Part shown: positions 9,769 through 13,109 of the stretch, piece after piece
Layout: every line of letters starts with the position of its first letter
How positions within the stretch are numbered: the first letter of the stretch is position 1
From: Bifidobacterium choladohabitans
Lineage (GTDB): Bacteria > Actinomycetota > Actinomycetes > Actinomycetales > Bifidobacteriaceae
Length of the DNA: 64,000 nucleotides
Reading direction: 5' to 3'
NCBI RefSeq assembly: GCF_016102005.1
Contig: NZ_JACFPL010000002.1
Span: 434,001-498,000, forward strand
Made by a program: the position numbers and the translations under genes
The notes under the pieces: model-generated
The model's input: the letters and a program-made list of their open reading frames with translations, nothing else
Databases searched by the model: none
What the model was told of the DNA's origin: nothing

Positions 9769-9780
9769 TGCCAATAAAGA

Positions 9781-9818
9781 TTGTGCCCCCGTCCGGCTCA
9801 AACCGGACGGGGGCACAA
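9781..9818. terminator. Bidirectional terminator between tal and hemH
   Basis: TTGTGCCCCCGTCCGG (9781-9796) is perfectly complementary to 9803-9818 across a six-base loop CTCAAA. The stem is 16 base pairs. The AT-rich stem ends give short U-runs in both directions, so it can end tal and the convergent hemQ-MFS-hemH transcript. Confidence 0.88.
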
Positions 9819-9828
9819 TTTGTATCAG

Positions 9829-10752
9829 TTACTCGGCCTTGGTCTCCTCGACCACCTGCTGCAGGATGGCAATCAGGGCTGGGCTGTCGTTGGGCATGTT
9901 CAGCCTGGTCAGGGTGCCGCCGGCGGACTCGATGGCCTTGGCCAGCTCCATGTCCACGTCGTAGCAGATCTCCAGGTTGTCGGCGATGAAGCCGATGGAG
10001 GCGGAAACAATGGTCTTCATGCCGCTCTTGGTGATCAGATCCTTGGCCACGGTGACGAAATCAGGCCCGATCCAGGGCTCCTGGGTGCGGCCTGCCGACT
10101 GCCAGGCCAGTACGTACTGGTCCTCATTGAGACCGGCTGCCCGGGCCACGGCATTGGACAGACCGATGACCTCATCCTTGTAGGGGTCCCCTCCCTGGAT
10201 GATGCGCAGGGGCAGGGAGTGGGCGCTGAAGATCACCTTGGTGTCCGGCCGGTCGGTCAGATCCTTCTTGGCCACCAGCTGGTCGCTCCAGAAGTGGATC
10301 AGCTCCTGGTGGTTCCACCAGGACCGGACCGGCAGGTACTCCATGCCCGGATGGGCCTCGATGGCCTTGCGGGCGCGGTTGTGGTAGTCCTCGCTCGAAT
10401 AGGAGGAGTACTGCGGGGCCAGCGGCAGGCCGATCACCCTGGTGATGCCATCGGCGGCAATCTGGTCGACCGCATCCTTGATGAAGGGGGTGATGTACTT
10501 CAGCCCCTCGTAGACCTTGTAGGCGCCGGGATGTGCCTTGTCCAGCGCAGCCTGGAGGCCGTCGCGCTGTGCCGTGGTGATCCTGGCCAGGGGCGAGGGC
10601 AGACCGATGGCCTTGTAGCGGCCGACCAGCTGGTCCATGAGCGGCTTGGGGGGCTCCTGCCCATGGCGGATGTTGGTGTAGTACCCCCTGATGTCGGACT
10701 CCTGGTAGGGGGTGCCGTAAGCCATGAGGAGGACTGCTGTAGGTTCAGTCAT
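9829..10752 (-). CDS. hemH: Ferrochelatase, coproporphyrin type (CpfC/HemH)
   Basis: This soluble enzyme inserts ferrous iron into a porphyrin. In Gram-positive bacteria the substrate is coproporphyrin III. The 307-residue protein resembles Bacillus HemH by eye: LLMAYGTPYQESDI with the substrate-contacting Tyr near residue 11, YYTNIRHG, the SAHSLP catalytic His near residue 180, WQSAGRTQEPWIGPD, and IGFIADNLEICYD with the catalytic Glu. I chose ATG 10752 (AGAAAGAAG upstream). It overlaps the end of the MFS gene by eight bases, indicating translational coupling. With hemQ this makes a two-enzyme route to haem. Confidence 0.92.
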   Translation of the reverse strand: MTEPTAVLLMAYGTPYQESDIRGYYTNIRHGQEPPKPLMDQLVGRYKAIGLPSPLARITTAQRDGLQAALDKAHPGAYKVYEGLKYITPFIKDAVDQIAADGITRVIGLPLAPQYSSYSSEDYHNRARKAIEAHPGMEYLPVRSWWNHQELIHFWSDQLVAKKDLTDRPDTKVIFSAHSLPLRIIQGGDPYKDEVIGLSNAVARAAGLNEDQYVLAWQSAGRTQEPWIGPDFVTVAKDLITKSGMKTIVSASIGFIADNLEICYDVDMELAKAIESAGGTLTRLNMPNDSPALIAILQQVVEETKAE

Positions 10753-12142
10753 CAGCAACTTCTTTCTGTGAAAATGGAATGCAGTATGTCAGGCCGATAT
10801 TGACCAGGGCTATGACGATGACCACCAGGAACATGTTCCTGTAGGAGGCCAGACCGGCCTGTCCGCCCACCTTGCCCAGCTCAATGGCCGAGGCGAAGAG
10901 CAGGGGGGCGATGGTGGTGCCGATCTTCTTGCAGGCCGACAGCCCGCCGATGGCCTGCATGCGGTTCTCGGGCCCGGCCAGCCTTCCGGCGATGACCTGG
11001 AGCGGCGAGGACATCATGGAGCCCATGCCGACCCCCATCAGGAAGGACAGGACCATGAAGAGCTGCAGGTTGTGCAGGGTCAGGGTGATCACCAGGGCCA
11101 TCAGGCCTATCAGCGACGACGAAAAGACGAGCGTGGTCCGGTAGCCGAACTTGTCGACCAGGAGCCCGCCCAGCCAGGACCCGACCACGGAGCCGAGCCC
11201 GACGCCGACCATGACCATGCCGGCCGAGCGGACCGGGAGTCCGAAGACGGAGTGGACATAGGTCGGAATGTAGACGAAGAGGGAGAAGAACATGCCTCCC
11301 AGCGTTCCCAGCAGCAGTGTGAGCCCATAGGAGGGCAGCTTGAGCAGGCGGATGGGCAGGAAGGGCATGGTCTCGCTTGAACCGCCAAGATTGCGCTCAT
11401 GCACCAGGAAGATTGCACCGGCAACCACGGTGACCAGGAGGCATCCAATGATCAGGGCCAGATAGGTCGTGCCGTACTGGAGGAAGGTGATCGCCACCAT
11501 CAGCAGGGCCAGAGCGATACTGAAGGAGCCCAGGCCCAGGTAGTCGGTCTTCCAGGCGCGGTCGGTCTTCGAGTCGCCCATCATGAACCAGGCCAGAACA
11601 AACAAAATGGCCAGGAAAGGCAGCATCATGAAGTAATAGGCCCGCCATCCGTGGGTGATGCCCAGGAGCATGCCCGAAAGGACCGGGCTGACCATGGCGG
11701 AAAGGCCGGCGATGATGCCCACCGTGGAGACCTTCCTGCCCTGGTTGTTCCTGCGGGCTCGCTGCAGCAGGACGTTCATGGACAGGACCATGATGCCGCT
11801 GTCTCCCAGGGACTGGATGAACCGGCCCAGCAGCATGACCGCATAGTTGGGCGAGACCGCCGTCATCAGACATCCAAGGAACCAGAAGGCCAGCTCCCAG
11901 AGGAAGACCTTCCTGGTCCCGTGGGCGTCGGAGAGGTTGGAGGTGATGGGGGTGCCCACCACCAGGCCCAGGGTGTAGAGTCCGACCACCCAGGAGGAGC
12001 CCATGGTGGTCAGGCCGAAGGTCCGTGTGATGGACGGCAGCATGGTCGGCACCGCTCCCCCATCCAGCTGGGTGATGAAGACGATGACCATGAAGAACCA
12101 TATGGGCGTGGAAAGGATCGATCTTCTCTCTCTTGTCGACAT
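10745..12142 (-). CDS. MFS transporter in the haem cassette
   Basis: This 465-residue major facilitator superfamily protein has hydrophobic segments spaced as 12 to 14 transmembrane helices. An early motif, D-G-G-A-V-P-TMLPSI in helix 1, resembles the DHA drug:H+ antiporter class, and GRFIQSLGDSG matches the helix-4 motif of that class. It lies between hemQ (3-base gap upstream) and hemH (8-base overlap downstream), so the three are surely co-transcribed. The context suggests transport of a porphyrin, haem or related tetrapyrrole, but sequence alone gives neither substrate nor direction. Export of excess haem or of a toxic intermediate is as possible as import. Confidence 0.85.
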   Translation of the reverse strand: MSTRERRSILSTPIWFFMVIVFITQLDGGAVPTMLPSITRTFGLTTMGSSWVVGLYTLGLVVGTPITSNLSDAHGTRKVFLWELAFWFLGCLMTAVSPNYAVMLLGRFIQSLGDSGIMVLSMNVLLQRARRNNQGRKVSTVGIIAGLSAMVSPVLSGMLLGITHGWRAYYFMMLPFLAILFVLAWFMMGDSKTDRAWKTDYLGLGSFSIALALLMVAITFLQYGTTYLALIIGCLLVTVVAGAIFLVHERNLGGSSETMPFLPIRLLKLPSYGLTLLLGTLGGMFFSLFVYIPTYVHSVFGLPVRSAGMVMVGVGLGSVVGSWLGGLLVDKFGYRTTLVFSSSLIGLMALVITLTLHNLQLFMVLSFLMGVGMGSMMSSPLQVIAGRLAGPENRMQAIGGLSACKKIGTTIAPLLFASAIELGKVGGQAGLASYRNMFLVVIVIALVNIGLTYCIPFSQKEVADD

Positions 12143-12145
12143 GTG

Positions 12146-12904
12146 TTACTGTCCCAACTGGTCCGTGAGCAGCCTGTCGATGCGCTCGGGATCGGTCCGG
12201 GTGCCCACCAGGAAGTAGGGGAATTCGCCGTAGATGGAGCTGGCTTCGATGTAGCGCATCTCGGTGACGATCTTCTTGAATTGGACAGGGTCGTCGGCGA
12301 AGAGCGTGACGCCCCACTCATAGTCGTCCAGGCCGATGGAGCCCGTCAGGATGATGGAGACCTTGCCGGCATAGGAGCGACCGATCTTGCCATGGTCGTG
12401 CATGTAGGCCTTGCGCTGGTCGTAGGGCAGCGTGTACCAGTTGGCGCCGGGGACGCGGGTCTTCGACATGGGATAGAAGCAGATGTAGGGCTTGTCGGGC
12501 GTCTTGGGATGCAGGCTGGCGTTGACGTAGGACCAACCACGGTCTGTTGTCGGTTCGCCCGAGTAAAGGCCCACCTCGGTGACCGATACATAGGAGATGG
12601 TCGGCTTCAGATAATCGGAGAGAGGCAGCTTCTCCAAGGAGGTCTCTACCTCCTGCAGCTGGTCCAGGGTCTCCCTGAGAACCATCAGGCCCAGGTCGGC
12701 CTTTTGCCCATTGACCTGGCACCAATAATGGCTTCCCTTGCCCTGGGACTGGACCTCGTCCAATTGTGCGGCCAGGGTCTTGAACCCATCCAGGCATTCC
12801 CGGCGCTCGTCCTGGGGCACCCGGCGCCACTTGCCCCAATCGATCTTCCAGAAGAGGTGGAGGCAGAACCAGCCCTCCAGGCTCGGTGCAGCTTGCTCAG
12901 CCAT
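12146..12904 (-). CDS. hemQ: Coproheme decarboxylase (ChdC/HemQ), Firmicute-like
   Basis: HemQ oxidatively decarboxylates coproheme III to haem b, the last step of the coproporphyrin-dependent pathway, using hydrogen peroxide. The 252-residue protein has the catalytic Tyr and Lys in YPMSK (Y144, K148), the proximal haem-ligand His in HDHG (H171, exactly 27 residues after Y144 as in Firmicute enzymes), then GRSYAGKV and the GSIGLDDYEWGVTLFADD block. That last block is typical of Firmicute rather than actinobacterial HemQ. The distal Gln of Firmicute enzymes (13 residues after the His) is Ile184 here. ATG 12904 has AAAGGA upstream. It is the first gene of hemQ-MFS-hemH. Confidence 0.92.
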   Translation of the reverse strand: MAEQAAPSLEGWFCLHLFWKIDWGKWRRVPQDERRECLDGFKTLAAQLDEVQSQGKGSHYWCQVNGQKADLGLMVLRETLDQLQEVETSLEKLPLSDYLKPTISYVSVTEVGLYSGEPTTDRGWSYVNASLHPKTPDKPYICFYPMSKTRVPGANWYTLPYDQRKAYMHDHGKIGRSYAGKVSIILTGSIGLDDYEWGVTLFADDPVQFKKIVTEMRYIEASSIYGEFPYFLVGTRTDPERIDRLLTDQLGQ

Positions 12905-13084
12905 GAGCACATCCTTTCGCTTGCTTAGCTTGCACGACAACGTGTAATATGCCGCTGATTCGGCACACAGTTACCCACTCTATCCGTCAACCGGCTGAAT
13001 CGCTGGATTATCCATGCATTGTGAATGACATATTGTGGTAATAGTCAAGGACTAGGAGCATTGCACCAAAGTGGTCCGGATATG

Positions 13085-13109
13085 GAAAAACCCCGGTCGA
13101 TGCCGGGGT
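13085..13109 (-). terminator. Rho-independent terminator after secG
   Basis: Reading the minus strand, ACCCCGG (13109-13103), a six-base loop, then CCGGGGT (13096-13090) followed directly by a T-run. This ends the whiA-pgk-tpiA-secG transcript. Confidence 0.85.

Follow-up and report, generated by a model that had tools for sequence, protein, structure and literature searches.

Many gut and food bacteria harbour haem enzymes without synthesizing haem, and the routes by which it is supplied are poorly known. Lactic acid bacteria such as Lactococcus show haem-activated respiration: a cytochrome bd is operated without haem synthesis, and finished haem is taken up from the outside. The coproporphyrin-dependent pathway of e.g., Bacillus, Listeria and Staphylococcus proceeds via CgoX, CpfC and ChdC (PMC10427985). 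For Bifidobacterium asteroides PRL2011, terminal haem steps, cydABCD and a catalase were already published in 2012; the authors credit the strain with the last three steps, beginning at coproporphyrinogen III, and no mention of a cassette, its transfer or plasmid copies was found in that paper (Bottacini et al., 2012, PMC3447821). The third step claimed may have been based on a HemN-like protein, which has been argued to be HemW (PMC9004370). O2 consumption among the assayed bifidobacteria was confined to B. asteroides, while relatives carrying cyd genes and apparently no HemQ did not consume it (PMC3447821, PMC9004370); in the non-consuming bee species with cyd genes, no HemQ was annotated (PMC9004370).

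Here, we describe a cluster of hemQ, an MFS transporter gene and hemH in a bifidobacterium of the same species group, the B. asteroides group of the bee gut. With a probability of roughly 0.6, we read it as a self-contained, horizontally acquired cassette for the salvage of coproporphyrin III, with the MFS protein as the most likely importer. Instead of three steps from coproporphyrinogen III, it would combine two steps and a transporter, starting from coproporphyrin III, and its presence could explain why respiration is seen in B. asteroides and not in relatives sharing its oxidase. No specific description of a mobile cassette with a conserved MFS, of a plasmid-borne hemQ-hemH unit or of coproporphyrin cross-feeding was found in the open-licence papers searched.

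Gene layout and enzyme type

The analysed window comprises 64,000 nucleotides, and all three genes are located on its minus strand. The first, hemQ (chdC; 12146..12904), encodes 252 aa from an ATG at 12904, predicted to form an H2O2-dependent coprohaem decarboxylase of the Bacillota type. It is followed by the gene of a DHA2-type MFS transporter (10745..12142, 465 aa), the proposed coproporphyrin III importer, and by hemH (cpfC; 9829..10752), which encodes a putative coproporphyrin III ferrochelatase of the Bacillota type with 307 aa when translated from the ATG at 10752; a TTG at 10758 is a possible alternative start. The compact arrangement pointed out in the earlier note, with a gap of 3 bases between hemQ and the MFS gene and an overlap of 8 bases between the latter and hemH, was confirmed by the open reading frames, the sequence and the Pfam and NCBIfam assignments. 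Pfam scores amounted to 191 bits for HemQ (Chlor_dismutase), 163 bits for the transporter (MFS_1) and 236 bits for HemH (Ferrochelatase), and NCBIfam assigned HemQ to the H2O2-dependent haem synthases (PRK12276, 299 bits, cut-off 253) and HemH to TIGR00109 (213 bits, cut-off 124.6). The cassette is flanked by secG-tpi-pgk on one side and tal-tkt on the other. Thirteen genomes of the genus share this gene order, with protein identities of 90–100%, which excludes a chance arrangement. The closest public loci, those of B. apousia and B. mizhiense, encode HemQ proteins with 96–98% identity, and across the closest public loci of the B. asteroides group, with HemQ identities of 90–98%, the neighbouring genes are the same.

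A candidate promoter region (13015..13050, minus strand) was found in an intergenic alignment of seven genomes, where TTGACT at 13048-13043 is followed by a conserved block; the promoter consensus scan did not call this TTGACT block, and the candidate is consequently a weak one. Downstream of hemH, the terminator scan gave an intrinsic terminator (9780..9819, minus strand), and although about 1.7 terminator-like sites are expected by chance in the region, its stem of 18 pairs is very long. An inverted repeat between secG and hemQ (13090..13109, no strand assigned), found by scan and in the sequence, probably terminates the secG operon that lies upstream.

Judged from scores and residues, HemH and HemQ are CpfC and ChdC of the Bacillota type. 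The best solved relatives of HemH are the CpfC enzymes of B. subtilis and Listeria, with about 234 bits for Listeria CpfC versus 110 bits for human ferrochelatase, and it retains the proximal Tyr12 as well as the distal pair His178 and Glu261. The roles of the catalytic residues in CpfC and ChdC follow published work, in which Tyr at position 12 represents the Bacillota state and Phe that of actinobacteria (PMC10427985). HemQ reached only 69 bits with the actinobacterial HemQ model, against 299 bits for PRK12276, and aligns with LmChdC (6fxj) and GsChdC (1t0t); its catalytic Tyr157 and proximal His171 are kept in every homologue aligned. As a counterpoint, it lacks the distal Gln of Bacillota ChdC (Q187 in Listeria); proteins of the B. 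asteroides group have Ile184 in its place, and those of a second Bifidobacteriaceae genus (g5) have Pro. The Q187A variant of Listeria ChdC is still active, with a higher H2O2 need (PMC7611857).

An alternative option would be that the enzymes serve other porphyrins, HemH acting on protoporphyrin IX or, in reverse, releasing iron from haem. PRL2011 membranes indeed respond to protoporphyrin IX, which the coproporphyrin route would not use (PMC3447821). However, HemH groups with the coproporphyrin ferrochelatases by the scores above and by Tyr12, and a partnership with HemQ would be meaningful only if coprohaem is the product (PMC10427985), so that we regard this option as most improbable.

In four further genomes (G096, G098, G103 and G105; loci L149:4416-7470, L156, L157 and L158), three tandem ferrochelatase genes lie downstream of hemQ-MFS. 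In copies 2 and 3, the metal-binding His/Glu are retained, but Tyr12 is replaced by Phe or Leu and Arg29 is lost; going by these residues, their metal or porphyrin may be a different one.

Haem genes in the host and its relatives

The host genome (2.08 Mb, 99.99% complete) encodes a single ferrochelatase, namely the HemH of the cassette. Family searches of this genome gave neither HemB nor HemC, and the search for the URO-D family (HemE) was without any match. For CgoX (TIGR00562), nothing exceeded the cut-off in 41 genomes including the host; candidates were rejected, since they match over a short N-terminal stretch (e.g., positions 2-73) in the FAD-binding part, with at most 39 bits. PF07285, which we take to be the CgoN/YtpQ family, was found in none of 43 genomes, again including the host, and among the control genomes it matched in B. 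subtilis only. CgoN, the product of ytpQ, has been described as an alternative oxidase (PMC10965808). Absence of HemB, HemC, CgoN and of CgoX above the cut-off extended to all 36 Bifidobacteriaceae tested. URO-D-like proteins of some relatives were rejected as HemE, being weak matches (40–82 bits) without any NCBIfam match, hemE included, in the three tested.

On the side of haem users, the host genome contains cytochrome bd subunit I (CydA) and a haem catalase. Within the Bifidobacteriaceae, 23 of 189 genomes encode HemQ, in line with the earlier remark that most bifidobacteria make no haem, and these carriers possess CydA throughout (23/23) and, with one exception, catalase (22/23). The genome search proposed in the earlier note thus found the upstream genes HemB, HemC, HemE and CgoX to be absent and the haem users to be present, and the full haem pathway elsewhere in the genome, which that note had named as a refuting finding, did not turn up. 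By family searches, the genome content allows iron insertion and decarboxylation, and it does not allow synthesis of coproporphyrin III; on this basis, we consider salvage from coproporphyrin III very likely.

Coproporphyrin III released by other organisms would then enter the cell, most likely via the MFS of the cassette. HemH (CpfC) would insert ferrous iron to give coprohaem, which HemQ (ChdC) would decarboxylate with two H2O2 to haem b, and the latter could serve cytochrome bd and the haem catalase. We infer in this scheme the supply of the substrate by neighbours, the direction of transport and the function in vivo. Against this scheme, several cassette-free relatives retain cytochrome bd and presumably use ready-made haem, so that uptake of finished haem may take place and the cassette may be optional.

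Distribution, age and decay of the cassette

Apart from bifidobacteria, the order hemQ-MFS-hemH was found in Agrilactobacillus, Companilactobacillus versmoldensis, Lentilactobacillus farraginis (with a broken MFS frame in the assembly used), an uncultured Lactobacillus and two further Lactobacillaceae genomes. Their proteins share 56–63% (HemQ), 51–57% (MFS, intact copies) and 45–61% (HemH) identity with those of the window. Plasmid copies with IS elements close by occur in L. reuteri, L. panis, several L. plantarum and Loigolactobacillus; hemQ is incomplete on the plasmids of L. panis, L. plantarum (p3) and Loigolactobacillus (pLDW-4), and one identical HemH accession is present on plasmids of three genera. 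A diverged form, MFS-hemQ-MFS-hemH, is carried by plasmids of Lactococcus and Enterococcus faecalis, its inner MFS being 33% identical. On two dairy plasmids (L191, pAH1-1; L195, E. faecalis LR961990.1), the order reads multicopper oxidase - MFS - hemQ - MFS - hemH. In the tree, all HemQ proteins of cassettes form one clade apart from those of Bacillaceae, Staphylococcaceae and Listeria, as seen with a midpoint root and long branches.

In other Bacilli, 68 hemQ loci were inspected and none contained a related MFS or HemH (0/68), which indicates that the MFS goes with carriers unable to make the substrate. Only five of 399 sampled Lactobacillaceae encode a close MFS, all five inside a cassette, and in a wider sample of 399 Bacilli genomes the known carrier was the only one with a close MFS. 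Among Lactobacillaceae carriers, seven were tested for HemE-family proteins, all with a negative result; HemC is present in four carriers and HemB in one of five tested, both of which we assign to the synthesis of cobalamin or sirohaem. The shared order across carriers, the absence of HemE in those tested and the lack of such an arrangement at the other hemQ loci together argue for a haem-completion cassette that has spread horizontally among organisms unable to produce its substrate. The linkage of transporter and enzymes, noticed earlier in this window only, gains weight from its recurrence in two phyla and on plasmids. In Lactobacillaceae carriers (L163, L165, L166 and L167; genomes G190-G193; also G189:C4:80807-81760), a second, distant ferrochelatase of about 25% identity is encoded at another genomic location, and its porphyrin specificity may differ.

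Recent acquisition by the bifidobacteria was rejected, as G+C content and third-position G+C of the cassette equal those of its neighbours, and the transfer is consequently old. Whether a single transfer into the Bifidobacteriaceae took place is undecided: genus g5 also carries the cassette, at a different chromosomal site, and is placed differently in the HemQ and MFS trees. In three Bifidobacteriaceae genomes, the cassette is decaying: in G142 (L154), the same site contains broken copies of hemQ and hemH and no longer an MFS gene; G095 (L155) retains a hemH fragment and has a stop counted inside the hemQ match; and in G126 (L153), hemH and half an MFS remain. All three still possess cytochrome bd. 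For the wider scenario of a mobile cassette turning haem auxotrophs into coproporphyrin III scavengers by means of a dedicated importer, with plasmid spread in lactic acid bacteria and an old transfer to bee bifidobacteria, we see even odds.

The transporter and described systems

The AlphaFold model of the MFS protein has about 14 membrane helices (mean pLDDT 79, nine sequences) and most closely resembles the folds of MHAS2168, EmrB, EfpA and QacA. Its best family matches are multidrug transporters, with 113 bits for TIGR00711 (cut-off 230). The protein could hence be a mere passenger between two haem genes, carrying an unrelated compound such as a drug. We consider this quite unlikely, since the MFS sits between hemQ and hemH in all intact cassettes read, a position kept in Lactobacillaceae, two genera of Bifidobacteriaceae and, at 33% identity, on the plasmids of Lactococcus and Enterococcus.

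More weight is due to the possibility that salvage occurs and the MFS acts as a safety valve, porphyrin entering otherwise and excess coproporphyrin, coprohaem or haem being exported. By sequence and fold, the transporter appears to fall into the drug:H+ antiporter group, one of exporters, and it keeps the SDxxGxxK motif of loop 2-3 and the LDxG motif of TM1. Its nearest relatives outside cassettes, with 31–34% identity, are found in Lactobacillaceae and were rejected as cassette members, since their loci contain no hemQ or hemH match. In five of the eight such loci examined (L175, L176, L178, L179 and L180), the gene adjoins one for a small HsmA-like membrane protein, confirmed by NCBIfam in three of the five; HsmA is haem-related, and together with the DHA2-type MFS it is a probable porphyrin transport pair. 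No gene for PefB, which we take to be equal to HsmA, or for another HsmA-like neighbour was found in the cassettes read. The MFS group is thus probably porphyrin-linked, with export as the known direction: the nearest relatives resemble PefA, a drug:H+ antiporter by which the haem auxotroph Streptococcus agalactiae expels haem and PPIX (PMC2858704).

However, a unit moving alone into hosts without a porphyrin source should bring along the missing entry step, which favours import. Moreover, motif C reads APIFVG or SPVLSG instead of the exporters' GPxxGG, a weak point in so far as the HsmA-linked relatives deviate as well (GPNLGS). R167, R387, K405 and K406 are conserved in the cassette proteins and absent from the HsmA-linked relatives, the Lactococcus form sharing R167 and the KK pair; as far as residues can tell, the basic positions and the altered motif C would be compatible with a tetra-anionic substrate and with a mechanism that has changed. 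Export remains a serious rival, which we nevertheless rate as rather unlikely, while import of coproporphyrin III is the most economical reading and, provided that salvage occurs, a reasonably likely one. Regarding the salvage unit with MFS-mediated uptake suggested in the earlier note, the salvage part gained support from the missing upstream genes and the haem users, and the direction of transport is left undecided by the antiporter family and the relatives resembling porphyrin exporters.

If import holds true, the MFS would be a candidate coproporphyrin importer, and plasmids would spread a route of haem-precursor cross-feeding among lactic acid bacteria. A small transferable unit finishing haem from an excreted precursor would represent a concrete mechanism of such cross-feeding.

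In comparison to the complete coproporphyrin-dependent pathway, HemH and HemQ of the host belong to the same CpfC and ChdC types and retain the catalytic residues, but CgoX, CgoN, HemE, HemC and HemB are missing from its genome, the enzymes are clustered with an MFS and HemQ is devoid of the distal Gln. PefAB of S. agalactiae likewise ties a drug:H+ antiporter MFS to porphyrins in a host with cytochrome bd and without haem synthesis; PefA pairs with PefB, whereas the MFS of the cassette lies between hemQ and hemH and shows about 32% identity to PefA-like candidates, a figure referring to these candidates and not to PefA itself (PMC2858704). With the haem-activated respiration of lactic acid bacteria, finally, the cassette would share the need for supply from the outside, which there consists of finished haem and here of a precursor that is completed in the cell.
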